Assembly (NCBI GenBank): GCA_902596165.1
Contig: CACJSU010000005.1
Span: forward strand, 1 to 34,606
Direction: 5' to 3'
Origin: an uncultured SAR86 cluster bacterium
Lineage (GTDB): Bacteria; Pseudomonadota; Gammaproteobacteria; Magnimaribacterales; D2472
DNA: 34,606 nucleotides
The first letter of the stretch is position 1. Each line of letters opens with the position of its first letter. A model generated the notes under the pieces. The model saw only the letters and a program-made list of their open reading frames with translations. It searched no databases and had not been told where the DNA came from. This document shows positions 3,353 through 33,726 of the stretch, in pieces. Position numbers and translations under genes: made by a program.

Positions 3353-3354
3353 TT

Positions 3355-4320: not shown

Positions 4321-4341
4321 TCAATTAATTCGGAGAAAAAT

Positions 4342-5115
4342 ATGAGTTATGAAACTTTAAGCCTAGCTATTGAAAATAGGGTAGCAACTATAACTATTAA
4401 TCGTCCAAAAATGATGAATGCTTTTAATGAGCAGCTTATTTGGGATATGGGGAATGCAACTGAGCAAGTTAAAAATGATTCTCAGGTTAGAGTGTTGGTT
4501 ATAACTGGAGAGGGTAGAGGATTTTCTGCTGGTGCTGATTTAACTGAAAGAGAGGCTTCATGGTCAGATACAAAGGATGCATTGTTGAGAGGCTATCATC
4601 CTTTTTTAAAGAATATAATTGAAATGCCAAAACCAGTTATTGGTTCAATTAATGGAGCTGCTGCTGGTATTGGAGCTGCATTGGCTATGGCATGTGATTT
4701 AAGAATCATGGCTAAAGATGCATACATCATGTCAGTTTTTAGCAATATTGCATTAGTGCCAGATGGCGGACTTAGTTTTCTTTTAACAAGAGCTATTGGT
4801 TATGGGCGAGCTTTAGAATATGCAATTGAAGCAAAGAAAATATCTTCAGCTGATTGTTTAAATATGGGCATCGCTAATAAAGTGGTGGAACTAGATCAAT
4901 TAGTATCTGAAACAAAAAAATGGGCAGAGCATTTATCCAAGAGATCTCCGCAAGCATTATCACTAACTAAAAAATTGATGAATGATTCGATGACTCAGTC
5001 ATATGATGAAACCTTTAAAGCTGAAGCAGAAGCTCAAAATAATATCTTTGGATCTGACGAGAATATGGAAGGGGTGAAAGCTTTCTTGGAAAAGCGAGAG
5101 CCAGATTTTAAGTAA
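4342..5115 (+). CDS. Enoyl-CoA hydratase/isomerase family protein, PaaG-like
   Basis: A 257-residue crotonase-fold protein acting on an acyl-CoA. The oxyanion-hole segments are visible: FSAGADL near residue 65 and NGAAAGIGAALAMACDLR near residue 110. By alignment to rat enoyl-CoA hydratase, neither catalytic Glu is kept: the Glu144 position is Ala and the Glu164 position is Phe. Instead the segment FSNIALVPDGG carries an Asp after LVP, as in PaaG-type isomerases. An isomerase or other crotonase reaction is therefore more likely than plain hydration; the substrate is not known. GGAG at 4332-4335, six bases before the ATG, supports the start. The gene may be the last of the dnaE operon. Its 3' end overlaps the convergent leuA by eight bases. 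Confidence 0.9.
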   Translation: MSYETLSLAIENRVATITINRPKMMNAFNEQLIWDMGNATEQVKNDSQVRVLVITGEGRGFSAGADLTEREASWSDTKDALLRGYHPFLKNIIEMPKPVIGSINGAAAGIGAALAMACDLRIMAKDAYIMSVFSNIALVPDGGLSFLLTRAIGYGRALEYAIEAKKISSADCLNMGIANKVVELDQLVSETKKWAEHLSKRSPQALSLTKKLMNDSMTQSYDETFKAEAEAQNNIFGSDENMEGVKAFLEKREPDFK

Positions 5116-6781: not shown

Positions 6782-6791
6782 TGCTTTTGTG

Positions 6792-7226
6792 ATGCTATCA
6801 AATAAATCTCAATATATTCTCTCTAAAATTGGTATTCCTTTATATGCGGATACAAATAACCTCGCTGTCAGTGATGAAATTGATATCCACTTCTTCCAAA
6901 AGGACAATATTCTAACATTACATGCAAATTCTGTAGATGAATACTCAGAAAAAGAGGTAAAGTTACTTGAAGCTATTATTGCCGCAATTCATGGAACCAA
7001 GCAACCAGCCTCAAGAGGTGCTATCTCATCCTCTTCTCAAGATCCTATTGATATAACAAGTTTTCATGATACCGCCAAACTTAAAGCGACCTTAGTTTTT
7101 TTTGATCCAAAGAATCTTTTTGATGACTTAAATTTAATTATTTCGCCATCATTAAAAGCAATGTTAACTAACCCAAACCTAAAAAAAGATCTTTGGAGTA
7201 AACTGAAGCCCTTGCAGTCAGCTTAA
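6792..7226 (+). CDS. holD: Probable DNA polymerase III psi subunit
   Basis: Psi binds chi (HolC) and links the clamp loader to single-strand binding protein. The 144-residue product is short and divergent. Its N-terminus (YILSKIGIPLY) resembles the QLQQLGI segment of E. coli psi. The C-terminus (ISPSLKAMLTNPNLKKDLW) lines up with the conserved psi segment VASPALTDLRANPTARAALW. It directly precedes rimI, and holD-rimI is the gene pair found in E. coli and many relatives. I chose the ATG at 6792; an in-frame ATG at 6753 would lie inside leuA and adds a hydrophobic stretch not expected in psi, while a GTG at 6789 is possible. The similarity is weak, so the call rests jointly on the C-terminal motif and gene order. 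Confidence 0.72.
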   Translation: MLSNKSQYILSKIGIPLYADTNNLAVSDEIDIHFFQKDNILTLHANSVDEYSEKEVKLLEAIIAAIHGTKQPASRGAISSSSQDPIDITSFHDTAKLKATLVFFDPKNLFDDLNLIISPSLKAMLTNPNLKKDLWSKLKPLQSA

Positions 7227-7667
7227 ATGACCATTTCATACAGGCCAGCCAGTTCAGATGATGTTTCTGCAATTCTAGAAATTGAAAATAAGACTAACCA
7301 GATGCCGTGGACAGAGGCTCAATTTATATCTTCCATGGAAGTTGGTCATTTTTCGGTGGTACTCCATGAAAAAAATAATATTCAAGGGTTTGCCATTTAT
7401 TCACCAATAGTTCCCGAATCGCATTTATTAAATATTGCCATTCATCCAACTCATCAAGGGAAGGGATTGGGAGACAAGCTACTGCAACAAGTTATTATTC
7501 AGAATAAAATAATGGGAGTTCAAGTTATATCTCTTGAGGTTAGGGTCTCCAATCTTCCGGCGATAAAGCTATATGAAAAAAGAGGATTTCTAAAAGATGC
7601 CATTCGACCTAACTATTACAGCGGTCCACCAAAAGAAGATGCTTTGTTGATGAGTTTAAAAATTTAG
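7227..7667 (+). CDS. rimI: Ribosomal protein S18-alanine N-acetyltransferase
   Basis: GNAT-fold enzyme that acetylates the N-terminal alanine of ribosomal protein S18. The 146-residue product has YRPASSDDVSAILEIENKTNQMPW at the N-terminus, the acetyl-CoA loop HPTHQGKGLGDKLLQQ (Q/RxxGxG/A type) near residue 75, LEVRVSNLPAIKLYEKRGF near 110, and the RimI-type ending RPNYYSGPPKEDALLMSL. The ATG comes immediately after the holD-like stop with no gap, so the two are translationally linked. It ends one base before the convergent glutathione peroxidase gene, leaving no room for a separate terminator. Confidence 0.92.
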   Translation: MTISYRPASSDDVSAILEIENKTNQMPWTEAQFISSMEVGHFSVVLHEKNNIQGFAIYSPIVPESHLLNIAIHPTHQGKGLGDKLLQQVIIQNKIMGVQVISLEVRVSNLPAIKLYEKRGFLKDAIRPNYYSGPPKEDALLMSLKI

Positions 7668-7668
7668 T

Positions 7669-8148
7669 TTATAAAATTTTTTGTAATTCAGGCTCTATAG
7701 CTGATTGGCCATCTTTAGGAGCAAATCTTTTGACTACCTGACCATCTTTATTAACAAGGAATTTGGTGAAATTCCATTTCACAGCCTCGGTACCAAGAAT
7801 TCCTGGAGATTCATGCTTAAGGTATTTAAATAGAGGGCTGGCATTTGCACCATTAACCTCAATCTTGTCAAACATTTTAAATGAAACATTAAATGTAAGA
7901 TCACAAAACGATTGGATCTCTTCATTGGTTCCAGATTCCTGGGCACCAAATTGGTTACACGGAAAACCTAGAACCTCAAAATCTTGATCTTGATATTTCT
8001 CATATAAATGTTGAAGATCTTTGTATTGAGGCGTAAATCCACATTTACTTGCTACATTGACTATTAATAATGTTTTTCCTTTGTAGTCACTTAAATCCAC
8101 TGAGTTTAATTCAATGTCTTTAACACTTATGTTGTATAACTCACTCAT
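7669..8148 (-). CDS. Glutathione peroxidase family protein (thiol peroxidase)
   Basis: Thioredoxin-fold peroxidase that reduces hydrogen peroxide or lipid hydroperoxides. The 159-residue product has the signature NVASKCGFTPQY with the peroxidatic Cys (Cys instead of selenocysteine) near residue 35, LGFPCNQFGAQESG with a second Cys and the conserved Gln near residue 75, and the WNFTKFLV motif near residue 124, which supplies the Trp and Asn of the catalytic tetrad. As in most bacterial homologues, thioredoxin may be the true electron donor. Start chosen at the ATG at 8148 because AGGAG lies at 8155-8159, six bases upstream; a TTG one codon earlier is less likely. BtuE-like. Divergent from the ElaA fusion gene. 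Confidence 0.94.
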   Translation of the reverse strand: MSELYNISVKDIELNSVDLSDYKGKTLLIVNVASKCGFTPQYKDLQHLYEKYQDQDFEVLGFPCNQFGAQESGTNEEIQSFCDLTFNVSFKMFDKIEVNGANASPLFKYLKHESPGILGTEAVKWNFTKFLVNKDGQVVKRFAPKDGQSAIEPELQKIL

Positions 8149-8193
8149 CAAGAACTCCTAATTTTGAATTTAGATTATACGGAATAAAACAAA

Positions 8194-21066: not shown

Positions 21067-21681
21067 ATGATGAAAGCTAACTATATAGAATTTTACTTTG
21101 ACTGTTCAAGCCCTTGGACATATTTAGCATTTGCCGAAATTGTATCATTTTCAGAAAGACATGAGCTAGATATAGACTGGAAGCCAGTGCTGGTTGGAGG
21201 AGTTTTTAATACAGTTAATCAAGATGTATATGAGTTTAGAAAAAAACCTAATCCTTTAAAGCTCAACTACTCAAATGATGACTTGCATTTATGGTCAAAG
21301 GTAAGAGGAATTAGCATTAGCTTTCCCGAAGTTTTCCCAGTTAATTCAGTAAAAGCAATGCGTGGTTGCTTGTATGCTAACAAAGAAAATCAATTGGTTG
21401 AGTTTGCTGACAATGTGTTTCAAGCTTATTGGAGTGTAGGTAAAGATATCAGCCAGGAAGACTTATTGGTCGAGATTGCTGAGAATTCAAATTTAGATAC
21501 TGAAGAGTTTAAAAAATTTATAGCTTCGCAAGAGGCCAAAGATCTATTGATCAAAAATACTGATGAGTTAATTGAGCGCGGAGGTTTTGGTTCGCCAACT
21601 TTTTTTTATAAAGAAAAAATGTTTTTTGGAAATGATCGCTTGCATCTTTTAGAAGAAGCAATTTCAAAAAATTTAATTTAA
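21067..21681 (+). CDS. DsbA-family / 2-hydroxychromene-2-carboxylate isomerase-like protein
   Basis: A 204-residue thioredoxin-fold protein of the kappa-GST/HCCA isomerase group. The N-terminus IEFYFDCSSPWTYLAF has Ser-Ser-Pro in place of a CxxC motif, so it is a glutathione-dependent isomerase or transferase rather than a disulfide oxidase. Further marks are WKPVLVGGVFN near residue 40, FPVNSVKAMRGCLYA near 95, and the GGFGSPTFFYKEKMFFGNDRLHLLEEAI ending typical of HCCA isomerases. True 2-hydroxychromene activity (naphthalene pathway) is not implied. The start is one of two adjacent ATG codons (21067, 21070). A TACAAT box lies eight bases before the first. The 3' end overlaps the convergent acyl-CoA dehydrogenase gene by four bases. 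Confidence 0.86.
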   Translation: MMKANYIEFYFDCSSPWTYLAFAEIVSFSERHELDIDWKPVLVGGVFNTVNQDVYEFRKKPNPLKLNYSNDDLHLWSKVRGISISFPEVFPVNSVKAMRGCLYANKENQLVEFADNVFQAYWSVGKDISQEDLLVEIAENSNLDTEEFKKFIASQEAKDLLIKNTDELIERGGFGSPTFFYKEKMFFGNDRLHLLEEAISKNLI

Positions 21682-22763
21682 ACCTGCGTTTTATATGCTT
21701 CTTCTCGAACAAGTTCTGGGCTACCAAGAATTTGACGATTTAACCCAATTCGTTTGAACCAGTAATGCAGGCCAAGCAAGTCTGTAAAACCCATGCCACC
21801 ATGAACCTCTGTGGCTTTCTTCGCTATACCTTTGGCCATTTCGGAGACATGTGCTTTTGCATGACAAGCCATTAATCTCGCCTCAGCAGGAGAATGGTCG
21901 TGGCAATGCGCAGCGTGCCAAACTAATGCGTAGCAGGGCTCCAAGTCAGCAGCCATCTCTGCACACATATGTTTTACAGCCTGAAATGATCCAATTGCTC
22001 TGCCAAACTGTTTTCGCTCCTTAGCATAATCAACTGCCTTATCTATCATGGTCTGTGAAGCGCCAAGAGAATCTGCAGCAAGCATAATCCTACCAGCATC
22101 AATTGCTTGATTGATTGGGTTTATTGAATCAGAAGAATTTTCTAGCAGTTCTGCTTCCAAGTTTTTGCAAATCACTTCTGAATATTGTCTGGTTTTATCA
22201 ACTGTGGTTAGTTTGACTATTTCTATGTTTGAAGATTTTGCATCTACAACAAATATCTGACCTTTTTCATCTGCAAGTAATAAATGAGTTGCATCATTAG
22301 CATCGAGCACAAACATAGCTCTTCCATTTAAAGAATGGTCCGAAAACGTTATTCCAGCATCATTTCTTTTACCGATGAATTCAGTAAAACCAACTCCAAA
22401 TCGATATTCATTGGTGGCAATTTTAGAAAGATAATTTTCTTGCTGAGTTTTGCTACCTGCGTGCTTAATAGCTGTCGGCGCCATAACATAGGGTGCAATA
22501 AATGGAATAGGGCCAACACCACCTCCTAAAGCTTCTGAGACGACAGCGGCAAAGAGCAAATCCAAGCCTAGGCCACCAAATTCTTCTGGAATTAAGAGCG
22601 CATTTATTCCTAGATTAAGCAAACCTTGATGAATTTCTGCAGAAAGGTTCTTTTCATCACCGTTAGCAATATGCTTAATATTATCTATCGTGGCATACTC
22701 TTCTAGATATTTTCTTACATTGTCCTGAAAAAAAGATTGTTCTTCTGATAAACCAAAATACAT
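21678..22763 (-). CDS. Acyl-CoA dehydrogenase-like protein, probable non-catalytic partner subunit
   Basis: A 361-residue acyl-CoA dehydrogenase (ACAD) fold: N-terminal helices (MYFGLSEEQSFFQDNVRKYL), LGINALLIPEEFGGLGLDLL near residue 55, and the C-terminal FAD-binding DYAKERKQFGRAIGSFQAVKHMCAEMA near 240 and EVHGGMGFTDLLGLHYWFKR near 325. Neither known catalytic Glu position is filled: the IVD-type site reads AGRIM (Arg), the GFTWE-type position is Leu, and no YEGT motif exists. Such proteins pair with a second ACAD in heterotetramers, for example in mycobacterial cholesterol side-chain breakdown. The upstream neighbour, one base away, is the likely partner. Last gene of the operon. Confidence 0.85.
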   Translation of the reverse strand: MYFGLSEEQSFFQDNVRKYLEEYATIDNIKHIANGDEKNLSAEIHQGLLNLGINALLIPEEFGGLGLDLLFAAVVSEALGGGVGPIPFIAPYVMAPTAIKHAGSKTQQENYLSKIATNEYRFGVGFTEFIGKRNDAGITFSDHSLNGRAMFVLDANDATHLLLADEKGQIFVVDAKSSNIEIVKLTTVDKTRQYSEVICKNLEAELLENSSDSINPINQAIDAGRIMLAADSLGASQTMIDKAVDYAKERKQFGRAIGSFQAVKHMCAEMAADLEPCYALVWHAAHCHDHSPAEARLMACHAKAHVSEMAKGIAKKATEVHGGMGFTDLLGLHYWFKRIGLNRQILGSPELVREEAYKTQV

Positions 22764-22764
22764 T

Positions 22765-23988
22765 TTATGCTCCCTCTACTTTTGGTTCTTTAGGCATGCC
22801 TAGACCTCGTTCGGCAATGATATTCTTTTGAATTTGACTGGTACCTCCGCCGATAATCAGGCCAAGAAAATACATGTATATGAATTGCCAGGTGCCATCA
22901 TTTTTAAGATGTGGGCTATTTTCATACAAGGTTCCAATTTCACCCATCACATCAATGGCAAGGCCTTCTAGCTCATGTCTTAGTTCTGTTCCAGTAAGTT
23001 TTTGAATCATCTTACCTATCTTGACATCAGCTCCAGGATTTAGCTTGGCTGATAGCAGTCTTAATGCATGAGATTGCTGGGCTAAAACTTTGCCTTGAAT
23101 TTGCATCAATCGATCTCTATAAATTGGGTGCTCAATTAATGGCTTGCCATCTAGTGTTTCTTCTTTCATAAGATGCATAAGCATATTTACTCTATTCATG
23201 GTTGCATCTGGTGGAGCCAAGGAGCCTCTTTCATGACCTAAAGTTGCATTTGCAACAGCCCAGCCTTCACCTCTTTTACCCACAATATTGCTGGCTGGAA
23301 TTTTTACATCTGTAAAAAAGACCTCATTAAATCCAGCCTTTAAAGTCATATCTACCAGGGGTCTAATTTCAATGCCTGGAGTATCCATTGGGATCAATAA
23401 GTAGCTTATTCCAGCGTGTTTTGGTGCATCTGGCTCTGTTCTAACAAGACAAAAGCACATTTGTGAGTATTGGGCGGTACTGGTCCAAATTTTTTGACCA
23501 TTGATCACCCATTCATCACCAACCAACTCTCCCTTAGTTTGTAAGCTTGCCAGATCACTCCCCGCATTTGGCTCAGAATAACCTTGGCACCAAATCATTT
23601 CTCCATGGAGTGTGGGCTTGATATAAGCTTCCTTTTGTTCCTTGGTACCCATCTCTAATAATGTTGGAACCAACATATCAATTCCCTGGCCACCCATGGG
23701 ACCCGGCGTATTAGATTTTGAGAACTCTGCAGCAATAATTCTGCTTTTTAGGATATCTGCTTCACCGCCATATCCTCCGTATTCTTTTGGAACTGAGCGT
23801 GCAAAATAACCATTCTCAATTAAGGTTTTTTGCCATTCAGACCTAGACATTTTAGGTCCACCAGATCCTCCTGAACTTCCCAGTGGATTATTAGAACCAT
23901 CTGTGAAAGATAGTCCTTCATATTTTTTACAAAAGCTTTGAACCTCTTTGGTAAATTCTTGATACTCTGGTCCGTATTCTAAATCCAT
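22765..23988 (-). CDS. Acyl-CoA dehydrogenase, probable catalytic subunit of a heteromeric pair
   Basis: FAD-dependent enzyme that introduces the alpha,beta double bond into an acyl-CoA. The 407-residue product shows WCQGYSEPNAGSDLASLQTKGELVGDEWVINGQKIWTS at 133-170 (FAD and substrate site), FNEVFFTDVKIPASNIVG near 220, and the C-terminal GGGTSQIQKNIIAERGLGMP. The usual EGT Glu is Gly here (GGGT). Glu253 in GHERGS sits where isovaleryl-CoA and long-chain dehydrogenases carry their base, so the protein is probably catalytic, in the style of ChsE1-type subunits. AAGGAAG lies shortly before the ATG. It is followed by the shorter ACAD-like partner after one base. Confidence 0.9.
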   Translation of the reverse strand: MDLEYGPEYQEFTKEVQSFCKKYEGLSFTDGSNNPLGSSGGSGGPKMSRSEWQKTLIENGYFARSVPKEYGGYGGEADILKSRIIAAEFSKSNTPGPMGGQGIDMLVPTLLEMGTKEQKEAYIKPTLHGEMIWCQGYSEPNAGSDLASLQTKGELVGDEWVINGQKIWTSTAQYSQMCFCLVRTEPDAPKHAGISYLLIPMDTPGIEIRPLVDMTLKAGFNEVFFTDVKIPASNIVGKRGEGWAVANATLGHERGSLAPPDATMNRVNMLMHLMKEETLDGKPLIEHPIYRDRLMQIQGKVLAQQSHALRLLSAKLNPGADVKIGKMIQKLTGTELRHELEGLAIDVMGEIGTLYENSPHLKNDGTWQFIYMYFLGLIIGGGTSQIQKNIIAERGLGMPKEPKVEGA

Positions 23989-24001: not shown

Positions 24002-24793
24002 TTATTTCCAATTTGGTTTTCTTTTTTCTAAAAACGCAGCAATACCTTCCTTAGCATCATCACCTTCAAAACATTTAGCAATTTGTTTTTGTAAATATGG
24101 AAGAGCCTCATCAAATTCCAAAGCGTCTTGTTTCTCATATGCTTCTAGACCAAATTGCATGGTTCCTGGGGCTAGACTAGCTAGTTCTTCAGCTAGCTCG
24201 CTAACTCTTTTATCCAGCTCATTAGCCGCAACAGACTCATTGATTAACCCCCATATCTCAGCTTTATTGGCATCAATGGGCTGACCACGCATAATAAAAT
24301 CAAGCCCAGCTCTTTTAGGCATGACTCTGAACAACCCAGCCATGACCATAAAAGGCCACAGGCCTCTGTGTATCTCAGGCGCTGAAAACTTTGCAGTATC
24401 AACTGCTATGGCATGAGTTGCATTGGTTAAAATCAACAAGGCCCCAGCCAAGACAGAGCCTTGAATTTTGCATATTACTGGTTTGTGCAGTCTTCTTAGG
24501 GAAAAACTGATGTCATCTGCCCCCTCTAATTTTGGGACATTAGACTCTTCTTTTGCTCTTCGTAGATCAGCTCCAGCACAAAAAATATCTCCCTCAGCAT
24601 CAATCACAACAACCCTAATTTCTCTTTCTTGTTTGGCGTAAGCTAAAGCATAATTTAGCTCGTTTACCATCACATTGTTTAATGCATTTTTTTTCTCAGG
24701 TCGATTTAATGTGATGGTTAAAATATTATTTTTAATATTAATTTTCGTTGCTTGAAAGTCCAAACCCTCTAAAGATAATTTATCTATGCTCAT
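24002..24793 (-). CDS. Enoyl-CoA hydratase/isomerase family protein of the carboxylase operon
   Basis: A 263-residue crotonase. The first oxyanion segment is FCAGADLRRA near residue 71; the second, GSVLAGALLILTNATHA near 110, is unusual and has Leu at the Glu144 position of rat hydratase, while the second catalytic Glu is kept in FSAPEIHRGLWPF near residue 140. A single Glu is typical of glutaconyl-CoA-type hydratases such as LiuC and AtuE. Beside an acyl-CoA carboxylase, hydration of a carboxylated beta-methyl enoyl-CoA is the most likely role, but this is inferred. The ATG overlaps the stop of the AtuA-like gene (ATGA), so expression is coupled. Confidence 0.87.
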   Translation of the reverse strand: MSIDKLSLEGLDFQATKINIKNNILTITLNRPEKKNALNNVMVNELNYALAYAKQEREIRVVVIDAEGDIFCAGADLRRAKEESNVPKLEGADDISFSLRRLHKPVICKIQGSVLAGALLILTNATHAIAVDTAKFSAPEIHRGLWPFMVMAGLFRVMPKRAGLDFIMRGQPIDANKAEIWGLINESVAANELDKRVSELAEELASLAPGTMQFGLEAYEKQDALEFDEALPYLQKQIAKCFEGDDAKEGIAAFLEKRKPNWK

Positions 24794-26565
24794 ATGTTTT
24801 CCTCAAATAAAGATTTAGGGATATCCGCATACTTAGCTCTTAAGTATTCCCCGAGAGATTTAGCTTGACCATCTTTCCTGGTATTAGAAGAAACTCCATC
24901 TTCTAATATGTCATGGATATAAAAATTGAGTGAAAGTATATTTGGTAGCTCATATCTGTCTATTTCAAATTCTCTTAAGTCAGGCATCAATTCTTTGATT
25001 TTTTCGACTGTTAGAAAATTATTTAAAAAAGAGAATGCATTCTCACTTTTTGCCCATACACCGATATTCGCACAACCACCTTTATCGCCAGATCTGGCTC
25101 CAAAAAGCTCTCCTAGAGGTTTGTTGGTGGTTTTACCTGATGGAGGAGGGGGTATTTCAATTGGTTGTTTTTGATAATAAGTTTCTTCTAAATCCAATTG
25201 ATTGGTTGGTATGACATCAATTTCTTTGCCATTAATATGAACAATTTCTTTTATATGCTTGCTATCTATCAAAGCCGGCCAGTAGACTAAAACAGGTCCT
25301 CCTGATCTCACTCCGCCTCCAGTAAAAAATCCTGGATAATTAGCTAAAGCTAGTTCTATCATCTTTGCTGTAAACATTCTGCCAACCAAATCCGGATCTT
25401 TTGATTTTACCGAAATCCTCAAAGAGGCCATGGCTTCTTCATTAGAATTTGGATCTTTTTTGTCTGTTCTATCTAATAAAATTGAAACTTCATCAAATTG
25501 TTCTTTGCCTCCAACAGAGTTAAAGAGTGCATCAGTGATAATTTGAGCTTTTTCTTCAATATCTATGCCCGTAAGAATAAATTCCATGCCATTTCTATAT
25601 CCACCAGCAAGATTAATACAAACTTTATGAGTATTGGTTGGAGAGCTTCCTCTGCATCCAGATACATAGACTCTGTCTTTGGAAACTTCCTCAATATTCA
25701 AGGTATCAAAATGAGCTATGACATCTGGGTTTAAGTATGCGGGAGCACTAATTTCATACAAAAGCTGTGCAGTTACAGTTCCAGTAGATACCAAGCCGCC
25801 AGTACCAGGATGCTTGGTAATGTAAAAACTTCCATCGTTTTTGATTTCAGCTATTGGATAGCCCACATTATCAAAGCTTGGCACCTCTTTAAAAAAAGAA
25901 TAGTTTCCACCAGTTGCTTGGCAACCACATTCAATGATATGCCCAGCTGCTAATGCACCAGCCAATGCATCATAATCATCTCTCTTCCAATTAAATTTCC
26001 ATGCTGCTGGACCAATGACTACTGCAGCATCCGTCACCCTTGGGCATACAACAATATCAGCGCCTTCATCCAATGCCTCTTTAATTCCCCAGGCTCCAAG
26101 ATAAGCATTTGCTGTGAGTGTTTGACATCCTGATTTATCAATCGGAATATTTTTATCAATGTTAAGAAATGATTCTCCTTCATTTTTTAAGGAGTCCATT
26201 CTTGGCATTAAATCATCGCCAGTTATGTAAGCAACTTTGAGAGAAATATTTAGCTCATCTAAGATTTTCTCTATTTCATTAGCCATAGAAGAGGGGTTCA
26301 AGCCACCCGCATTTGTAACAATTTTAATATTTTGTTCTTTACATGACTTAGCTACTGCTTTCACTTGTTTAAGAAAAGTACCCACGTATCCCTTATCCTC
26401 TCCGCGCTGCATCCTTTGATTAAAAAGAATTGTCATGGTGAGTTCTGCTAAATAGTCTCCAGTCAGTACATCTATAGGTCCTCCATCCACCATCTCTTTA
26501 GCAGCAGATAATTTATCTCCGTAATAGCCGCTACAATTTGCAATTCTTATAATTTCTTCGCTCAA
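24790..26565 (-). CDS. AtuA-like protein (DUF1446 domain plus C-terminal AtuA domain)
   Basis: A 591-residue protein matching AtuA of the acyclic terpene utilisation cluster, which has about the same length. The DUF1446 domain covers roughly residues 5-450: IRIANCSGYYGDKLSAAKEMV, IDVLTGDYLAELTM, IVTNAGGLNPSSMANEI, DIVVCPRVTDAAVVIGPAAW, TGGNYSFF, HPGTGGLVSTGTVTAQLLYEI, FFTGGGVRSGGPVLVYWP. The C-terminal part from about 480 has LGELFGARSGDKGGCANIGVWAK. The biochemical role of AtuA is unknown; it is required for growth on citronellol in Pseudomonas, and the family occurs with acyl-CoA carboxylases. The start overlaps the TetR stop by ATGA. The protein is the strongest pointer to a terpene-like or other branched substrate for this operon. 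Confidence 0.9.
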   Translation of the reverse strand: MSEEIIRIANCSGYYGDKLSAAKEMVDGGPIDVLTGDYLAELTMTILFNQRMQRGEDKGYVGTFLKQVKAVAKSCKEQNIKIVTNAGGLNPSSMANEIEKILDELNISLKVAYITGDDLMPRMDSLKNEGESFLNIDKNIPIDKSGCQTLTANAYLGAWGIKEALDEGADIVVCPRVTDAAVVIGPAAWKFNWKRDDYDALAGALAAGHIIECGCQATGGNYSFFKEVPSFDNVGYPIAEIKNDGSFYITKHPGTGGLVSTGTVTAQLLYEISAPAYLNPDVIAHFDTLNIEEVSKDRVYVSGCRGSSPTNTHKVCINLAGGYRNGMEFILTGIDIEEKAQIITDALFNSVGGKEQFDEVSILLDRTDKKDPNSNEEAMASLRISVKSKDPDLVGRMFTAKMIELALANYPGFFTGGGVRSGGPVLVYWPALIDSKHIKEIVHINGKEIDVIPTNQLDLEETYYQKQPIEIPPPPSGKTTNKPLGELFGARSGDKGGCANIGVWAKSENAFSFLNNFLTVEKIKELMPDLREFEIDRYELPNILSLNFYIHDILEDGVSSNTRKDGQAKSLGEYLRAKYADIPKSLFEENI

Positions 26566-27164
26566 GATTTCTCCATTTTGATGCCATCAATAATGATTTT
26601 TGTTAAAAAATTACTAGTTTCTTCAGGAGTTTGGTGTAAATCTTTCAAGAGTTTCTTAGATTGAAAATATCTTCCCAGACCTCCCAAAAGTAATGCAGTT
26701 GCCTGAGTATCAATCTCTTTGATCTCATTTTTAATTCTTGCTTCATCTAAAAGATTTTTTATTAGGTCAGTTATGTATTGTTCATGATAGTCCACCATTG
26801 CCTTAGATGAATTTAAACTACTAAGAGATAGCGTGAATCTTTCAAATCTTGGCCCAACTGCTTGATTAGCGACAGTCAAAAAACTTTCTAATTTTTTTAT
26901 TGGAGATGAATGAGCATTCATTGCATCTATAGCTATCTTGCCGTGTTTTTTTAGTACCCTATCAACGGTTGTTACTATTAATTCCTCTTTGCTTGGTGCA
27001 ATTTCATATAGAGTCCTTAGTGAAATTTTCAACTGTTTTGCTAGATCAGACATTGTTGAAAATGATTTTCCTTTATCAAGCATGCTTTCTAGTTCGTCCA
27101 TAACCTCAAGATGACGCTTTCCAAGTTGAGGCGACTGTTTTGAAAGGACAGCGTGAGATTTCAT
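26562..27164 (-). CDS. TetR-family transcriptional regulator inside the carboxylase operon
   Basis: A 200-residue regulator. The N-terminal helix-turn-helix is FSTMSDLAKQLKISLRTLYEIAPSKEELIV, about residues 33-62 (TetR type, ending in the usual Y..x.SKEEL). The C-terminal helical ligand domain carries a hydrophobic core (ATALLLGGLGRYFQ near 165). I chose the ATG at 27164, one base after the biotin carboxylase stop; a start at 27212 would put 17 residues inside the upstream gene. The stop overlaps the AtuA-like start. As part of the operon it would regulate itself. The 26-bp inverted repeat before the operon is a candidate operator, and an acyl-CoA intermediate a likely inducer; both are inferences. 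Confidence 0.86.
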   Translation of the reverse strand: MKSHAVLSKQSPQLGKRHLEVMDELESMLDKGKSFSTMSDLAKQLKISLRTLYEIAPSKEELIVTTVDRVLKKHGKIAIDAMNAHSSPIKKLESFLTVANQAVGPRFERFTLSLSSLNSSKAMVDYHEQYITDLIKNLLDEARIKNEIKEIDTQATALLLGGLGRYFQSKKLLKDLHQTPEETSNFLTKIIIDGIKMEKS

Positions 27165-27165
27165 A

Positions 27166-29085
27166 TTATTGTTCAAGAACGAGAAGGGTAGCACCGTTAT
27201 CAACTTGATCATTCAGATGAATCATTACTTTGGCTATCTTGCCTGTCTCAGTTGCTTTAATTGAATGCTCCATTTTCATAGCCTCAATAATTACCAAAGT
27301 ATCACCAGCTTTTACTTTACTGCCTTTTTTGACTTTCACATCAATAACTTTTCCAGGCATTGGAGCTATCAATCCCCCCTCAGGGATGTCATTACCTGGT
27401 TCTATAAACCTAGGTAGAACAGATGCATTAATGTCTCCAAATGGCATATTTATAACGATCTCACTGCCTGCCTCAGTTATGTGAGCATAAAATCTGTGAG
27501 AGTCTATCTGTATATCAATGCCAAAACTATCGCAATGGTAAATTTTACAAATGGAGCCCATAACTTCATAAAAATTATCTTTATTTAATTTATACTTTAC
27601 TTCGATCTCATCTTGCACAAAAAGTAACTTAACCCTTTGAAGCGGCATTCTTCCATTGGTCCAGTTTCCAGGCATAAAACCTGTAACAGGGTCAGAGACT
27701 CTATTTTGTTGCGCTAGCCATAAAGCAATTGCTGTCGATGTTTGATGAAGTTCATTTACAGAAAGATTTTTTTTCGTTTCTAAAGCTTCACGCTCAACAA
27801 AGTCTGTTGTTGTATTTCCGTTTAAGAAACTTTCATTTCTTAAGCAAGAAATTAAAAATTGACGATTTGTTACCACACCTCCCATGTGAGCTTTTTCAAG
27901 TCCGCGTGCCAGTTTATTTGCGGCATCAATTCTATTAGGAGCCCAAGAAATAACTTTAGACAACATGGGATCAAAATCTGTTCCAATAACACTACCTTCT
28001 TCCACGCCTGAATCCCATCTTACCTCTGAAGCTAGGCTAGTATCATATGCGTGTAGGGTTCCAATTTCAGGTAAAAAGTTATTTCCAGGATCCTCAGCAT
28101 ACAATCTTGCTTCAATTGCATGTCCATGCCAGTCAATATCATCTTGAGCAAACTCAAGCTCATCTCCTCTCGCTATCTTGATTTGCTCAGCAACCAAATC
28201 TATTCCTGTAACTTCTTCTGTAACTGGGTGCTCAACTTGCAGTCTAGTATTTACCTCTAAAAACCAGAATTCATCTGTTTTATCGTCAAACAAAAATTCA
28301 ACAGTTCCTGCAGAGCAGTATTTAATTTTTTTAGCTAACTTAATAGCTGCTTTACCCATCTCCTCCCTTAAGAAGGGATCAATTCTTGGGGAAGGCGACT
28401 CCTCAATAATTTTTTGATGCCTTCTTTGTATGGAGCATTCACGTTCTCCTAAATGAACAACATTGCCATGTTCATCACCTAAGATTTGTATTTCAATATG
28501 ACGTGATTTTTCTACATATCTTTCTATAAAAATTCTGTCATCACCAAAACCTGAAAGAGCTTCTCTTTTGGCACTTACGATTGAATCTTTTAATTCACTT
28601 TCTTTTTCAACAATTCGCATTCCTTTACCACCACCTCCAGCAGCAGCTTTGATTAAGATCGGGTAACCAATCTTTTTGACATCTTTAGTATTTGAGGTCA
28701 TCGGTAGGGTGGGAACCCCAGATTTTTCTGCTATTTCTTTAGCTTTTAATTTATCACCCATCACTTTGATTACATGGGGGGATGGGCCGATCCAAATTAA
28801 TTTATTGCTTTTAACTTTTCTAGCAAAGGCTGCATTTTCTGATAAAAAACCATATCCTGGATGGATTGCTTCTGCTCCAGATTGTTTAGCTGCATCAATA
28901 ATGGCAGAGCCATCCATATAGCTAGAAGATAACTTTATAGCTTCATCAGCCATCTTTACAAATGGAGCATCCTTATCAGCATCAACAAAAACAGCTACAC
29001 ATTTAATACCCATAAATTGAGCGGTTTGCATGATTCGACAGGCAATCTCTCCACGATTAGCAACAAGAATTGAATTAAATCTCAT
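27166..29085 (-). CDS. Acyl-CoA carboxylase, biotin carboxylase / biotin carrier subunit
   Basis: The 639-residue alpha subunit of a methylcrotonyl- or geranyl-CoA type carboxylase. It holds the biotin carboxylase domain (ILVANRGEIACRIMQTA at the start, AAAGGGGKGMRI at about 148-158 for ATP, ERECSIQRRHQKIIEESP near 215, FLEVNTRLQVEHPVTE near 270), a linker domain, and the C-terminal biotinyl domain with EAMKM at 601-605; Lys604 carries biotin. This domain order is shared by MccA/LiuD, AtuF and PccA, so sequence motifs alone do not give the substrate. The ATG overlaps the carboxyltransferase stop (ATGA), consistent with equal production of the two subunits. Confidence 0.95.
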   Translation of the reverse strand: MRFNSILVANRGEIACRIMQTAQFMGIKCVAVFVDADKDAPFVKMADEAIKLSSSYMDGSAIIDAAKQSGAEAIHPGYGFLSENAAFARKVKSNKLIWIGPSPHVIKVMGDKLKAKEIAEKSGVPTLPMTSNTKDVKKIGYPILIKAAAGGGGKGMRIVEKESELKDSIVSAKREALSGFGDDRIFIERYVEKSRHIEIQILGDEHGNVVHLGERECSIQRRHQKIIEESPSPRIDPFLREEMGKAAIKLAKKIKYCSAGTVEFLFDDKTDEFWFLEVNTRLQVEHPVTEEVTGIDLVAEQIKIARGDELEFAQDDIDWHGHAIEARLYAEDPGNNFLPEIGTLHAYDTSLASEVRWDSGVEEGSVIGTDFDPMLSKVISWAPNRIDAANKLARGLEKAHMGGVVTNRQFLISCLRNESFLNGNTTTDFVEREALETKKNLSVNELHQTSTAIALWLAQQNRVSDPVTGFMPGNWTNGRMPLQRVKLLFVQDEIEVKYKLNKDNFYEVMGSICKIYHCDSFGIDIQIDSHRFYAHITEAGSEIVINMPFGDINASVLPRFIEPGNDIPEGGLIAPMPGKVIDVKVKKGSKVKAGDTLVIIEAMKMEHSIKATETGKIAKVMIHLNDQVDNGATLLVLEQ

Positions 29086-30740
29086 AATCTAAATACTCCA
29101 TATTCTTTAGCTCCATCAATTGAAGAGTTAGAAACTATAGATAGGCAAAATCCAATTACACTTCTTGTATCTCTTGGGTCAATGATGCCATCATCAGTAA
29201 CCATACTGCTTGCAACCAGCCCCTCTGACATCTGGTCTGACATTTGTTCGACCATCTTTACGATTTCAGCATCTTGTTTTTCATCAAATTTTTCACCTTT
29301 TCGTTTAGCTTGACCTCTTCGCACAATAGACATTACTCCAGCAATCTGCTTAGAACCCATAACAGCAATTTTTGCTGTGGGCCAGAGGAAGGTGAATCTG
29401 TTGTTATATGCTCTCCCTGACATAGCATATGTACCTGCCCCAAATGATGCCCCAATAATAATTGTGATATGAGGAACATTAGAGTTAGACACTGCATTAA
29501 TAAGCTGAGACCCTTTTTTGATAATAGCTTGTCTTTCGAAATCCTTGCCTACCAAAAACCCTGTGACATTTTGAAGAAAAATTAATGGAATATTTCGTTT
29601 ATTACATAATTGGATAAAGGTTGCAGCTTTTTCAGCACTTTCTGGGTAGATGGGCCCATTATTTCCTAATATGCCTACTGGATATCCATGAAGCATTGAC
29701 CATCCACAAACCATAGTCTTGCCATATAGCGGCTTATATTCTTCAAATCTCGATCCATCAACAATTCGACCAATCACTTCCCTAATATCAAGCGGACTTT
29801 TAAGTTCTTCGTCAACAAGACCTAATAATTCTTCTTGAGATAAACTTGGGCTGTCAGCATCAGGGAGGGGAGAAGGGCCTTCTTTTATCCAGTGTAAATG
29901 TGATACAACATTTCTGCATAATCTCAAGGCATCCATTTCATCTTCAGCTAAATAGTCTGAGAGGCCTGAAACTTCCGAATGCATCTTTGCACCACCTAAG
30001 GTCTCATCATCTGATACTTCACCAGTTGCCATTTTGACTAAAGGAGGTCCTGCAAGGAATACTTTGGCTTGATCTTTAACAAAGATATTGTAATCAGACA
30101 TGCCTGGTTGATATGCGCCACCGGCAGTTGATGAGCCGAAAACAATTGATATTACTGGGATACGCATTTTAGAAAGTTCTGTTAGATCATAAAAATATCT
30201 TCCAGTTGCTGCAAAATGAGTATGACCTATGGTGGGTGCGATTGAAGGTTGATCTCCTTTCTTGCCGGTACCCATTCGAAGATCTCCTCCTGCAGATTCA
30301 ACAAAATTAATATACGGAAGACGATTATCTCTAGCGATTTCCATTGCTCTGTTCCATTTTTCTCCGACATAAACCGTCATAGCACCAGCTAAAACTGAAG
30401 GATCATTAGCAAAGATTACACATTCAGTGCCAGCAACAATTCCAATTCCAGCTACACATCCGCCTCCCACAGTAAAGTCTGTTCCGTAGGCAGCAAATGG
30501 AGCAATCTCGAGGAAGGGTGTATCAGGATCAAGTAAATTAAAGACCCTTTCCCTTACAGGCATTTTGCCTCGCTTTGCTAATCTTTCGTGATGATAGGCA
30601 CCGCCTCCCAATTCAGCCTTGTCTAAAAGCTCATCAAGAAAATTTATTTTCTTTAACATCACATTTTTGTTATGAATAAATTCATCAGAATTGATGTCAA
30701 TGTTTGTTTTAATTTCGGGAGCTATGTTTTTTCTAAGCAT
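29082..30740 (-). CDS. Acyl-CoA carboxylase, carboxyltransferase subunit (AtuC/LiuB-like)
   Basis: The 552-residue beta subunit transfers CO2 from biotin to the acyl-CoA. Visible: the N-terminal YHHERLAKRGKMPVRERV, the first oxyanion segment GSSTAGGAYQPGMSDYN near residue 205, FLAGPPLVKMATGEVSDDETLGGAKMHS near 232, NNGPIYPESAEKAATFIQLCNKRNIPLIFLQNVTGFLVG at 355-395, and the second oxyanion segment GASFGAGTYAMSGRAYN near 430. The DDETLGGA(K/E)MH..SGLSDY pattern resembles AtuC-like and related carboxylases at least as much as classical methylcrotonyl-CoA carboxylase. Lack of nearby HMG-CoA lyase and isovaleryl-CoA dehydrogenase argues against simple leucine catabolism. First gene of the seven-gene operon; its ATG is 51 bp from the nearest arm-bearing region of the divergent promoter. 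Confidence 0.94.
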   Translation of the reverse strand: MLRKNIAPEIKTNIDINSDEFIHNKNVMLKKINFLDELLDKAELGGGAYHHERLAKRGKMPVRERVFNLLDPDTPFLEIAPFAAYGTDFTVGGGCVAGIGIVAGTECVIFANDPSVLAGAMTVYVGEKWNRAMEIARDNRLPYINFVESAGGDLRMGTGKKGDQPSIAPTIGHTHFAATGRYFYDLTELSKMRIPVISIVFGSSTAGGAYQPGMSDYNIFVKDQAKVFLAGPPLVKMATGEVSDDETLGGAKMHSEVSGLSDYLAEDEMDALRLCRNVVSHLHWIKEGPSPLPDADSPSLSQEELLGLVDEELKSPLDIREVIGRIVDGSRFEEYKPLYGKTMVCGWSMLHGYPVGILGNNGPIYPESAEKAATFIQLCNKRNIPLIFLQNVTGFLVGKDFERQAIIKKGSQLINAVSNSNVPHITIIIGASFGAGTYAMSGRAYNNRFTFLWPTAKIAVMGSKQIAGVMSIVRRGQAKRKGEKFDEKQDAEIVKMVEQMSDQMSEGLVASSMVTDDGIIDPRDTRSVIGFCLSIVSNSSIDGAKEYGVFRL

Positions 30741-30754: not shown

Positions 30755-30761
30755 ATTGAGT

Positions 30762-30787
30762 GGTAATATAATATACAAATAATTACC
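30762..30787. promoter_or_regulatory. Candidate operator: inverted repeat GGTAAT-N14-ATTACC (site 1)
   Basis: Arms GGTAAT (30762-30767) and ATTACC (30782-30787) are perfect inverted copies; the flanking T and A at 30761 and 30788 extend them to seven bases. The spacer is 14 bases. The site lies in the only regulatory space between the divergent carboxylase operon and GST gene. It overlaps a TATAAT (30767-30772) pointing toward GST and the likely -35 of the operon. An inverted repeat with the same arms and spacing is found at 32618-32643. Confidence 0.65.
30767..30772 (+). promoter_or_regulatory. -10 box of the GST gene
   Basis: Perfect TATAAT lying inside the inverted repeat. The start of transcription would be near 30779, giving a ~60-base leader that contains the GAGGAG ribosome site at 30828-30833. 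No good -35 box is seen at 17 bases. Confidence 0.45.
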
Positions 30788-30839
30788 ATTTTTGAAATTA
30801 ATTTTAAAAATCATGGTTTTTCTTTCTGAGGAGAAAATA

Positions 30840-31463
30840 ATGAGCATCAAAATTTATAGTTGCAATGATTCTAGAGGCGTTAGGCCGATGTGGACTGCAG
30901 AGGAAATGGGATTAAGTTATGAGACTGAAATGATGCCATTCCCACCAAGGTTTCTGCACAAGGAATACATGGATGTAAATATTCTTGGCACTATTCCGTA
31001 CCTTGTAGATGGCGAGGTAGAAATGACAGAATCAGTTGCCATGTGCCAATATCTAGTGGAAAAATATGGCCCCACAGATTTGCGTGTTAACAGTGATGAG
31101 GCTGACTATCATCATTATTTAAATTGGCTTGCTCACTCTGATGCAACTTTAACCTTTCCTCAAACTGTAGTACTGAGATATACCCTTCAAGAGATAGGTG
31201 TTGCCGATAAAGCAGCAGAAGGATATCGAAGATGGTTTGTTGCTAGACTAAAGTTGCTTGAGCAAACTTTGGAATCAAGAGAATACTTGTGTTCAAATAG
31301 ATTTACCATTGCAGATATATGTGTGAGTTATGCAATATATTTAGCTAAGTCACTTCAAATAGAGGAGGCATTTAAGCCTAATATCAAACGTTGGACAGAT
31401 ATGCTTTTTGATAGAGATGGATTTAAAAGAGCTGTATCTATTCGATATGCCGAACCTGAATAA
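30840..31463 (+). CDS. Glutathione S-transferase family protein
   Basis: A 207-residue cytosolic GST. The N-terminal thioredoxin-like domain (IKIYSCNDSRGVRPMWTAEEMGLSYE) contains the cis-Pro segment NILGTIPYLVDGEVEMTESVAMCQYL with the Glu-Ser pair that binds the glutathione gamma-glutamyl end. The C-terminal helical domain has the N-capping box FTIADICVSYAIYL near residue 165. The active residue is likely Ser11 or Cys7 near the first strand, but this is uncertain. GAGGAG at 30828-30833, six bases before the ATG at 30840, decides the start against an earlier ATG at 30792. It shares its promoter region with the divergent carboxylase operon and abuts the convergent nitronate monooxygenase gene with no gap. 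Confidence 0.9.
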   Translation: MSIKIYSCNDSRGVRPMWTAEEMGLSYETEMMPFPPRFLHKEYMDVNILGTIPYLVDGEVEMTESVAMCQYLVEKYGPTDLRVNSDEADYHHYLNWLAHSDATLTFPQTVVLRYTLQEIGVADKAAEGYRRWFVARLKLLEQTLESREYLCSNRFTIADICVSYAIYLAKSLQIEEAFKPNIKRWTDMLFDRDGFKRAVSIRYAEPE

Positions 31464-32603
31464 TTAATCGCCAACAAAATTAGCTAATCTTTCATAGGCG
31501 TCAATAAAATCCTCTTTAAATTCTTGGACAACATCGCTTGCTGAAATTGTCTGATTCATCAATCCTACACCTTGACCCACCCAGTAAGTCGAAAGCTCTT
31601 TTGCACCTTCATGGCCACCTTCTGCTAATTTATTAACTTTTGCTAAAGCTGGCTCTGCCACCATGGGTTGAAGAGGCAATGGAAGTGGCTCAGGAGCTCC
31701 ATCTGCTTCCCATGCTTTTGTCCATTCAGATACAAGCTGTCTTGAGTGCTTTCCTGTTCTGCTTCTTGATCTAGTTGTTTGACTTGAAGTTGCAGCTACC
31801 ATTTTCTCTTTAATCACCGGCGGCACTTCAGACTCAGCAGTTGTTAACCATACAGATCCACACCATGCACCTGATGCTCCCATGCTCATTGCAGCTGCCA
31901 TCTGTCTTCCAGTTGCGATTCCTCCTGCGGCAAGAATTGGAACATCGCCATAGGGCTGAATAGCTTTATGAACTTCAGGGATTAAGACCATGGTTGAAAC
32001 GCTGCCACAATGTCCGCCGGCTTCTGTACCTGAAACAACCAAAATATCTACACCTGCTTTTACTTGATTGATCGCGTGTTGTGCTGTGCCTAAAAGAGCA
32101 GCAACTTTTACGTCATTGTCTTTTCCCATTTGCACCATCCAGTCAGGTGGAACGCCTAATGCATTTGCAATTATTTTAATTGGGTGACTGAATGCAACAT
32201 CCAGCAAAGCTTTTGCACCATCTGCCTTAGTATTTTCAGCCATGTAAGTTGCAGCCGGTTTGATTGTTCTTAATTCATCAGCTTCAATATCATGCTTTTC
32301 TAAAACATCTGCCCTAAAATCTGCATATTCTTGCGGTATCATTGAGGTTAATTTCTCAGCATCAAATTTTTGATTTTGATCTGCCATTTTATTAGGGATT
32401 AAAACATCTACACCATAAGGCAGCCCATCTATATGTTCATCAATCCACTTTAGTTCTTCCTCTAGCTGCTCAGGGGTCATTCCAACAGCTCCTAAAACTC
32501 CACATCCTCCAGCTTTTGAGACTGCTACAACCACATCTCTACAGTGTGTAAATGCAACCAGGGGGAATTCAATATCAAGAAGTTCGCAAATTTTTGAGTT
32601 CAT
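31464..32603 (-). CDS. Nitronate monooxygenase family (2-nitropropane dioxygenase-like) flavoprotein
   Basis: A 379-residue FMN-dependent TIM-barrel protein. Marks: the N-terminal ICELLDIEFPLVAFTHCRDVVVAVSKAGGCGVLGA, the FMN-phosphate segment DILVVSGTEAGGHCGSVSTMVLIPEV near residue 195, VPILAAGGIATGRQMAAAMSMGASGAWCGSVWLTTAES near 230, and an extended C-terminus. Members oxidise alkyl nitronates, but many family proteins act as enoyl reductases or have unknown substrates, so the name is a family label. AGGA at 32610-32613, six bases before the ATG, supports the start. Shares a divergent promoter region with the luciferase-like gene; that region carries the second copy of the inverted repeat. 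Confidence 0.88.
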   Translation of the reverse strand: MNSKICELLDIEFPLVAFTHCRDVVVAVSKAGGCGVLGAVGMTPEQLEEELKWIDEHIDGLPYGVDVLIPNKMADQNQKFDAEKLTSMIPQEYADFRADVLEKHDIEADELRTIKPAATYMAENTKADGAKALLDVAFSHPIKIIANALGVPPDWMVQMGKDNDVKVAALLGTAQHAINQVKAGVDILVVSGTEAGGHCGSVSTMVLIPEVHKAIQPYGDVPILAAGGIATGRQMAAAMSMGASGAWCGSVWLTTAESEVPPVIKEKMVAATSSQTTRSRSRTGKHSRQLVSEWTKAWEADGAPEPLPLPLQPMVAEPALAKVNKLAEGGHEGAKELSTYWVGQGVGLMNQTISASDVVQEFKEDFIDAYERLANFVGD

Positions 32604-32617
32604 TATTATTCCTAATA

Positions 32618-32643
32618 GGTAATAGACTGATTTTTATATTACC
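32618..32643. promoter_or_regulatory. Candidate operator: inverted repeat GGTAAT-N14-ATTACC (site 2)
   Basis: Arms GGTAAT at 32618-32623 and ATTACC at 32638-32643 with a 14-base spacer, the same arms and spacing as at 30762-30787; the spacer sequences differ. On the minus strand a TATAAA (32633-32638) inside the site could be the -10 box of the nitronate monooxygenase gene, with a short leader that keeps its AGGA site. Binding here would block that promoter and could also affect the luciferase-like gene 67 bases to the right. Confidence 0.65.
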
Positions 32644-32709
32644 ACTCGGGATACACAAAATGGAATACATCCATCATAATCATTCATGATTAAGTAAAAA
32701 TAATTCAAT

Positions 32710-33726
32710 ATGAAAAAAATTAAAGTCGACTGCTCGATGATTACACGAGATCCAGCTGAGGCTTCAAAAGTTAGCAAAAACCTTGAGGATCTTGGATACG
32801 ATGGAGCATACACATTTGAGGGGCCGCATGAGCCATTCCTTCCTCTTGCAGCAGCCGCTCTGGCAACAGAAAAATTAGAACTTTCAACTTCAATTGCTGT
32901 AGCATTTTCTAGAAATCCCATGACATTGGCTAATATAGGATACGATCTGCAATTGATGTCCAAAGGGAGGTTTACTCTTGGTTTGGGCTCTCAAATAAAA
33001 CCTCATATTGAGAAGAGATACTCCATGCCCTGGTCCTCACCTGCAAAACGTATGAAAGAAATGGTTGGTGCCATCAAGGCCATATGGAGATGCTGGCACG
33101 AAGGGAAAGATTTAGATTTTAGAGGAGAATTTTATAAGCATACATTGATGACTCCTTTTTTTAATCCAGGAGAAAACCCATTTGGTCTTCCAAAAATATA
33201 TGTTGCAGGCGTAGGCCCACTGATGACTCAAGCTGCAGCTGAATCTGGCGATGGGTTTATTGTGCATCCTTTTCATACAACCAAGTTTCTTGAAAATATT
33301 ACTTTGCCATCCGTGAAAAAAGGTCTTGAATTGTCAGAAACTCAAGAATTCGATTTCTCTGTGGGTGTTATGGTTGCAACGGGAACAACCGATGAAGAAA
33401 TTACTAAAGCAAGGGATGCTTGCAAGGCACAAATTGGATTTTATGGTTCTACTCCTGCCTATAAAATAGTTTTAGAGCAACATGGCTGGGAAAGTATTCA
33501 GCCAGAGCTTAATAGCCTGACTAAAAAAGGATTATGGCAAGATATTCCAAATCTAATTTCAGATGAAATCTTAGAAAACATCGCCGTGACTGGAACCCCA
33601 GATGAAGTTTCAAACATCATTTTTGATCGATATGGTTCTATTGCTTCAAGAATAGCCCCTTCAATCTTCTCAGGGGATCCTCAGGCAACCAAAGCATTAA
33701 TTACCTCACTAAAAGAAAAATTATGA
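32710..33726 (+). CDS. Luciferase-like (LLM) flavin-dependent oxidoreductase
   Basis: A 338-residue TIM-barrel protein resembling the subgroup annotated as F420-dependent (TIGR03617-like). Motifs: IKVDCSMITRDPAEA at the start, LGYDGAYTFEGPHEPFLPLAAAA near residue 30, STSIAVAFSRNPMTLANIGYDLQLMSKGRFTLGLGSQIKPHIEKR at 58-102, and LPKIYVAGVGPLMTQAAAESGDGF near 160. Cofactor may be FMN or F420; no F420 synthesis gene is visible here. It belongs to a different subgroup from the LLM gene at 10681. No clear Shine-Dalgarno is seen. The stop overlaps the nagZ start (ATGA). The shared operator-like repeat upstream links it to the carboxylase operon. Confidence 0.88.
   Translation: MKKIKVDCSMITRDPAEASKVSKNLEDLGYDGAYTFEGPHEPFLPLAAAALATEKLELSTSIAVAFSRNPMTLANIGYDLQLMSKGRFTLGLGSQIKPHIEKRYSMPWSSPAKRMKEMVGAIKAIWRCWHEGKDLDFRGEFYKHTLMTPFFNPGENPFGLPKIYVAGVGPLMTQAAAESGDGFIVHPFHTTKFLENITLPSVKKGLELSETQEFDFSVGVMVATGTTDEEITKARDACKAQIGFYGSTPAYKIVLEQHGWESIQPELNSLTKKGLWQDIPNLISDEILENIAVTGTPDEVSNIIFDRYGSIASRIAPSIFSGDPQATKALITSLKEKL

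Follow-up and report, generated by a model that had tools for sequence, protein, structure and literature searches.

A 26-bp inverted repeat, GGTAAT-N14-ATTACC, that stands in two divergent intergenic regions of an uncultured SAR86 cluster bacterium is, to judge from comparison of related genomes, very probably the operator of a TetR-family repressor encoded in the carboxylase operon next to the first copy, the second copy probably being a weaker operator found within one genus. Bacteria of the SAR86 cluster are numerous in ocean surface waters but mostly uncultured, so that their gene control must be read from sequence. The window, meaning the whole stretch of 34,606 nucleotides that was analysed (contig CACJSU010000005.1, positions 1 to 34,606), carries Site 1 between the gene for a carboxyltransferase subunit (CT) and a glutathione S-transferase gene (GST), and Site 2 between genes for a nitronate monooxygenase-like protein (NMO) and a luciferase-like monooxygenase (LLM), as listed in Table 1.

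Table 1. Candidate operators and neighbouring genes, with positions in the window.
Feature	Position	Strand	Evidence or remark
Site 1	30761..30788	.	28-bp TGGTAAT-N14-ATTACCA between CT and divergent GST genes; candidate operator
Site 2	32618..32643	.	second 26-bp copy; NMO start codon 14 bp downstream, LLM start codon 66 bp
CT, carboxyltransferase subunit, operon gene 1	29082..30740	-	PF01039, E 1.4e-125
BC, biotin carboxylase subunit with biotin carrier domain	27166..29085	-	PF02786, PF00289, PF02785, PF00364
TetR-family regulator, operon gene 3, proposed binder of both sites	26562..27212	-	TetR_N 21.1 bits; fold matches
AtuA-family protein	24790..26565	-	PF07287, 535.8 bits
Enoyl-CoA hydratase	24002..24793	-	PF00378
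ACADl, acyl-CoA dehydrogenase, larger subunit-like	22765..23988	-	acyl-CoA dehydrogenase Pfam domains
Acyl-CoA dehydrogenase, smaller subunit-like, final operon gene	21678..22763	-	acyl-CoA dehydrogenase Pfam domains
GST, glutathione S-transferase, divergent from CT over Site 1	30840..31463	+	GST_N, GST_C
NMO, nitronate monooxygenase-like, immediately downstream of Site 2	31464..32603	-	PF03060
LLM, luciferase-like monooxygenase, divergent from NMO over Site 2	32710..33726	+	TIGR03617, 434 bits, above cut-off

The operon runs from CT through BC, the TetR gene, the AtuA-family gene and the enoyl-CoA hydratase to two acyl-CoA dehydrogenases, and so holds an Atu-type gene set (PF07287, PF01039, PF02786, PF00378 and PF00441). 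We take AtuA, a two-subunit biotin carboxylase, a hydratase and an acyl-CoA dehydrogenase to be the make-up of an Atu (acyclic terpene utilisation) cluster. Against the gamma-carboxygeranoyl-CoA hydratase equivalog NF004227 the operon hydratase scored 122 bits, far below the cut-off of 426; the substrate may be an acyclic terpene, a sterol side chain or another branched acid. Two adjoining acyl-CoA dehydrogenase-like genes, named by eye from their translations, were seen a few kb past the window end (L306, 2873-5204), and paralogues of the operon acyl-CoA dehydrogenases, 29-36% identical, lie beyond LLM in several relatives.

The sequence-only reading of this DNA had reported two repeats with identical arms, identical spacing and unlike spacers. 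Both were recovered as exact copies (30762-30787 and 32618-32643) with the same 6-bp arms, N14 and differing spacers, in divergent intergenic regions that it had put near 100 bp and that measure 99 bp (Site 1, CT/GST) and 106 bp (Site 2, NMO/LLM). Neither the window nor the source genome (1,450,324 bases in 26 contigs, 86.6% complete) has any other perfect match; base composition predicts about 0.004 perfect matches per window and 0.16 per genome. In first-order Markov simulations of both intergenic regions (n = 20,000), 39 had any shared 6-bp repeat of equal spacing (0-30), and in none of these did the arm contain at least two G/C. The expectation that such a pair would hardly arise twice by chance was borne out by these figures, and in the whole-genome search copies did not turn up at random places. 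When one mismatch was permitted, the pattern was no commoner in the source genome than its reversed control (4 vs 6), and the two extra places lay within open reading frames. A relaxed 16-base pattern with up to three mismatches gave 14 places vs 8 for the reversed control, with perfect six-base arms at Sites 1 and 2 and at none of the other 12, and the idea of further targets in the genome was dropped.

At Site 1 the palindrome extends to 28 bp with an outer T and A (30761-30788). Among 81 distinct operon sites, all carry the outer T (81/81) and 80/81 carry the outer A, and the two bases just inside the CT-side arm are likewise invariant; the six-base arms are invariant among these sites because the collection used the perfect pattern, while the outer and inner flanking bases formed no part of it. 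Site 2, read towards NMO, has the outer T and lacks the outer A. The spacing is also constant: in 831,733 fetched bases, from loci mostly picked by TetR and in a few cases by the pattern itself, N14 accounted for 86 matches, as against 2 for the remaining spacings from 4 to 24 combined.

Conservation of the arms among relatives, on which the sequence-only reading had staked its proposal, was full at Site 1. We fetched 92 stretches, mostly chosen by TetR and a few by the pattern (93 loci with the window); the CT start lay on the contig in 80 of the 93, and a perfect repeat stood no more than 140 nt upstream of it in 74 of those 80. The six exceptions comprise three loci of genus g7 from genomes with no detected TetR gene, two of genus g14 with one arm mismatch, and genome G036, in which the repeat stands before an NMO-like gene that heads the operon. 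In a wider set of 105 loci, 83 had the CT start, BC and AtuA on one contig and 22 were not evaluable. A perfect repeat was found upstream of CT in 77 of the 80 evaluable TetR-positive loci, the remaining three having it before an operon-heading NMO-like gene (one locus) or with one mismatch (two loci), and in 0 of the 3 evaluable TetR-negative loci. Relatives are not independent samples, and all of these comparative counts are to be read in that light. The same operon and a perfect repeat were present in all nine loci whose titles do not name SAR86 (one Woeseia sp. and eight titled only as gammaproteobacteria). These nine form one group in the CT tree (support 99/96) apart from 20 SAR86 rows, and from titles and tree together they would lie outside SAR86, although some SAR86 records are also titled only as gammaproteobacteria.

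In two of the loci not titled SAR86 (L255, 1520-2320; L257, 1212-2027) the place of GST as divergent partner of CT is taken by a mycothiol maleylpyruvate isomerase-like protein, a hint that one step may depend on a thiol, and in L295 (genome G167, 1841-3026) the gene divergent from CT over the repeat is flavin monooxygenase-like. Locus L155 comes from a family-f1 genome (G091), and in the tree its CT falls with the f2 type (100/100), which suggests an exchange of the operon, repeat included, between SAR86 families. Locus L093 (genome G022, 959-8192) is a mosaic in which LLM, NMO and GST are 95-97% identical to those of the window and CT, BC and TetR are 45-68% identical; the break in identity falls near the Site 1 promoter, and both repeats are perfect.

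Across the 107 genomes of the window's family, the TetR gene was found in 77 (in two as fragments only) and the repeat in 76, vs 22 for the reversed control, and the two occurred together in 71. In all six genomes with TetR only, the contig stops before the CT start. Of five genomes with the repeat only, two have contigs that stop inside BC, before the TetR position, and the other three have in common one 26-mer within an open reading frame. Among the 30 genomes without TetR, 19 gave no CT match at E up to 1e-100, two are those whose contigs stop inside BC, and nine keep CT with its start region. None of these nine (eight of genus g7 and G032) has the repeat, the best places having 4-5 mismatches; in the three that were read throughout, AtuA follows immediately on BC, the TetR gene is missing from its place between the two, and the divergent GST gene is still present. 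Five further g8 genomes retain both TetR gene and repeat, and G032 groups in the CT tree with g8, apart from two g7 rows, so at least two separate joint losses took place. In f3 and f4, SAR86 families of the window's order, which had no TetR hit, the repeat was matched in 1 of 61 genomes vs 15 of 61 for the reversed control. We regard joint loss as the strongest evidence that the TetR protein would be what reads the repeat, and that the two are kept and lost together makes this protein very probably an autoregulating repressor of the carboxylase operon.

The match of the TetR protein to TetR_N (PF00440; 21.1 bits, E 2.6e-4) falls under the gathering cut-off of 24, and no NCBIfam model scored above cut-off. 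Its predicted structure (pLDDT 80, pTM 0.75) is almost entirely helical and shows the all-helical TetR fold with a ligand domain, residues 1-27 having pLDDT below 50. Foldseek returned 955 matches at E up to 10, 189 of them at E up to 0.001; the best 50 of the 955 had 12-20% identity and query TM-scores of 0.47-0.67, and were TetR-family by title or titled merely as regulators, which we take to be TetR-family as well. Proteins 34-84% identical to the TetR of the window, aligned over their full length, keep the recognition-helix region SLRTLY, with one change, T to D, in a TetR paralogue of genome G187; a tally of SLRTLY over 80 distinct segments is partly circular, the collecting pattern having fixed part of the motif. 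The best-matching relative locus has a TetR 100% identical to that of the window. As listed, the TetR gene overlaps BC at its start; the true start may be Met17 (27164), which agrees better with the alignment and with the low confidence of residues 1-27.

In the order, 93 perfect sites were found in 82 of 203 genomes. The reversed control was found in 40 of the 203, so a lone match means little, and position and linkage to TetR carry the argument. The operon accounts for 77 of the 93 sites (74, together with those of G036 and G167 and one of G169) and NMO-LLM for nine. Two more (G036 and G169) stand upstream of relatives of ACADl, 70% identical to that of the window and each with its own repeat, on a contig other than that of CT; in the 14 kb of the G036 operon contig that were read, no acyl-CoA dehydrogenase relative was found downstream of the hydratase. 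One site, in G187, stands 24 bp before a TonB-receptor gene, after which come the TetR paralogue and a beta-lactamase-fold hydrolase, and four are within other open reading frames. The pattern is thus rare by chance, and nearly all copies are where a regulator would be expected to act. The G187 paralogue (L180, 835-5323) has 34% identity, and the repeat precedes the TonB-receptor/serine-hydrolase operon to which it belongs. A sample of 369 genomes of the class was also searched, from which the nine loci not titled SAR86 are absent, having come from a separate contig search. TetR at E up to 1e-25 was found in 2 of the 369, both of the window's family, and the extended pattern in six vs three for the reversed control, one of the six being an operon site and two overlapping open reading frames; a class-wide spread of TetR and pattern is not seen in this sample.

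Site 2 is confined to genus g1, where it was followed in 18 loci including the window. Nine are perfect, and three each have one, two and three mismatches; the three with three mismatches belong to one subclade, and their right arm is ruined. Mean variation within the genus was 0.083 in the arms, 0.060 in the adjoining 40 bp and 0.135 in the spacer, the arms being no less variable than the neighbouring flank. A block upstream of NMO (32649-32672 of the window; GGATGTATTCCATTTTGTGTATCC on the minus strand) is imperfectly palindromic, and the flank that holds it is conserved across the genus at least as well as Site 2. Between GST and LLM in genus g8, four of whose five loci were tested, no equivalent of Site 2 was found (5 mismatches at best). 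Across the 18 loci of genus g1, nagZ adjoins LLM in 13, has diverged strongly in one and could not be located in four, and LLM-nagZ as a stable regulated pair was rejected. Arm conservation, full at Site 1, is partial here, and we conclude that Site 2 is probably real but unstable and limited to one genus. The single circuit that the sequence-only reading had drawn around the operon, GST, NMO and LLM-nagZ holds in part: the operon very probably belongs to it, NMO is a likely target within the genus, with an operator that comes and goes, and GST is a likely one by its position only; control of LLM by TetR is uncertain, and nagZ, for which no support was found, is a bystander.

The restriction of Site 2 to genus g1, the arm mismatches in half of its loci and the ruined arm in three of them would also suit a reading in which Site 1 alone works and the copy at Site 2 is in decay or arose by accident, leaving NMO and LLM outside the circuit. 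The arms are not better conserved than the flank, and NMO orthologues examined outside g1 and g8 (61-69% identical) have no upstream repeat, with 3-5 mismatches at best. A perfect match is nevertheless expected by chance at so low a rate per genome, and yet it stands just upstream of NMO in nine (closely related) genomes. In the nine imperfect loci, moreover, the arms are changed less than the spacers (18/108 vs 34/126), as they are in the three with the most spacer changes (4/36 vs 21/42). NMO is also joined to the operator elsewhere: in genus g8 an NMO 91-92% identical is placed directly over the operon's own repeat and shares it, and in G036 the NMO-like gene (32%) leads the operon downstream of the repeat. 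We judge an idle Site 2 unlikely, if worth keeping in mind, and prefer to see it as a second, weaker operator.

The targets of a TetR protein need not lie in its own operon, and a regulator encoded elsewhere might bind the repeat while this TetR protein acts at another site. The repeat and the TetR gene are, however, missing together where CT persists, they occur together in the nine further gammaproteobacterial loci, and the repeat accompanies the TetR paralogue in G187, which leaves this alternative very improbable. Still less credit is due to the idea that back-to-back promoters or an RNA hairpin gave rise to the symmetry, with no protein site: AT-rich, -10-like sequences do lie within the repeat, yet its spacing is constant, its outer T and A are near-invariant with neither in the search pattern, and in genomes without the TetR gene the arms are gone even though CT remains, as does the divergent GST in all three genomes that were read throughout. 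A shared operator read by the operon's own TetR protein, as the sequence-only reading had proposed, is supported by conservation, by joint loss and by copies before pathway genes outside the operon.

The core of the Site 1 repeat lies 21 bp before the CT start codon, over a -10-like sequence, as would be expected for a repressor. The promoter search gave two weak matches at Site 1 vs 1.6 in shuffles, and at Site 2 a single match (LLM, 32652-32680; 1.3 in shuffles) outside the repeat; the claimed overlap with -10 boxes is plausible at Site 1, the matches at both sites being no better than shuffles. In the mechanism that we propose, TetR without inducer would bind TGGTAAT-N14-ATTACCA over the CT promoter start region and block the operon and probably the divergent GST gene; with the TetR gene within the operon, the loop would be autoregulatory. 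Release would come from a metabolite of the pathway, a CoA thioester being the likeliest, and in genus g1 the weaker second operator upstream of NMO would add NMO, and perhaps LLM, to the set. Comparison of genomes gives the sites, their conservation and their linkage with the TetR gene and with pathway genes; from these we infer binding, repression, inducer and dimer number.

Each site would likely hold two TetR dimers. QacR places two dimers on one operator, and it is among the fold matches of the SAR86 protein. The arm centres are 20 bp, about 68 angstrom, apart, which is too wide for one ordinary TetR dimer; two dimers per operator are therefore likelier than one, judged here from the 20-bp arm spacing only. 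A report on DarR gives its dimer helices as 39-41 angstrom apart when DNA-bound or DNA-ready, describes a wide or overlapping palindrome read by a pair of dimers, and states that several TetR-family proteins bind DNA as dimer pairs (PMC10636190).

Acyl-CoA-type TetR regulators, namely KstR2, FadR of Bacillus, PfmR, AibR and the Clostridium perfringens protein 6azh, are among the closest folds, and 6azh and KstR are also among the closest solved structures by sequence. Regulators of this type control CoA-ester metabolism, which suggests a CoA ester as inducer of the SAR86 protein; their operators presumably differ from TGGTAAT-N14-ATTACCA. The nearest functional parallel, likened by gene content and function and not by sequence, would be AtuR/RdmA of Pseudomonas. 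Both are TetR proteins with an atu-type cluster, AtuA, carboxylase, hydratase and acyl-CoA dehydrogenase genes being common to the Pseudomonas cluster and the SAR86 operon. A published description presents AtuR/RdmA as a TetR repressor of the atu or dmg cluster with inverted repeats in the promoter region, and AtuR as divergent from atuA and binding a pair of 13-bp repeats spaced 40 bp apart, AGCAAGCGCTTGG and CCAAGCGCTTGCT (PMC9973270). Unlike AtuR as described there, the SAR86 TetR gene lies inside the operon, between BC and AtuA on the same strand, and in place of AGCAAGCGCTTGG and CCAAGCGCTTGCT the putative operator is one 28-bp TGGTAAT palindrome.

A literature search for the motif, for TetR in SAR86 and for this cluster found no description among the papers listed. 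The kind of switch is ordinary and already known; this regulon is newly recognised. We give about even chances to a broader interpretation, in which an undescribed TetR subfamily, with two stacked dimers on a 28-bp operator whose arms are two helix turns apart, would govern an Atu-type pathway of branched acyl-CoA carboxylation across uncultured marine gammaproteobacteria, the regulon following the pathway as a departing acyl-CoA dehydrogenase pair or a recruited NMO gains copies of the operator. For SAR86, the analysis yields a well-supported candidate operator, a named regulator and a defined set of targets. The regulon groups GST, NMO, paired acyl-CoA dehydrogenases and, in one relative, a TonB receptor next to a TetR paralogue, genes that may act on the same substrate.
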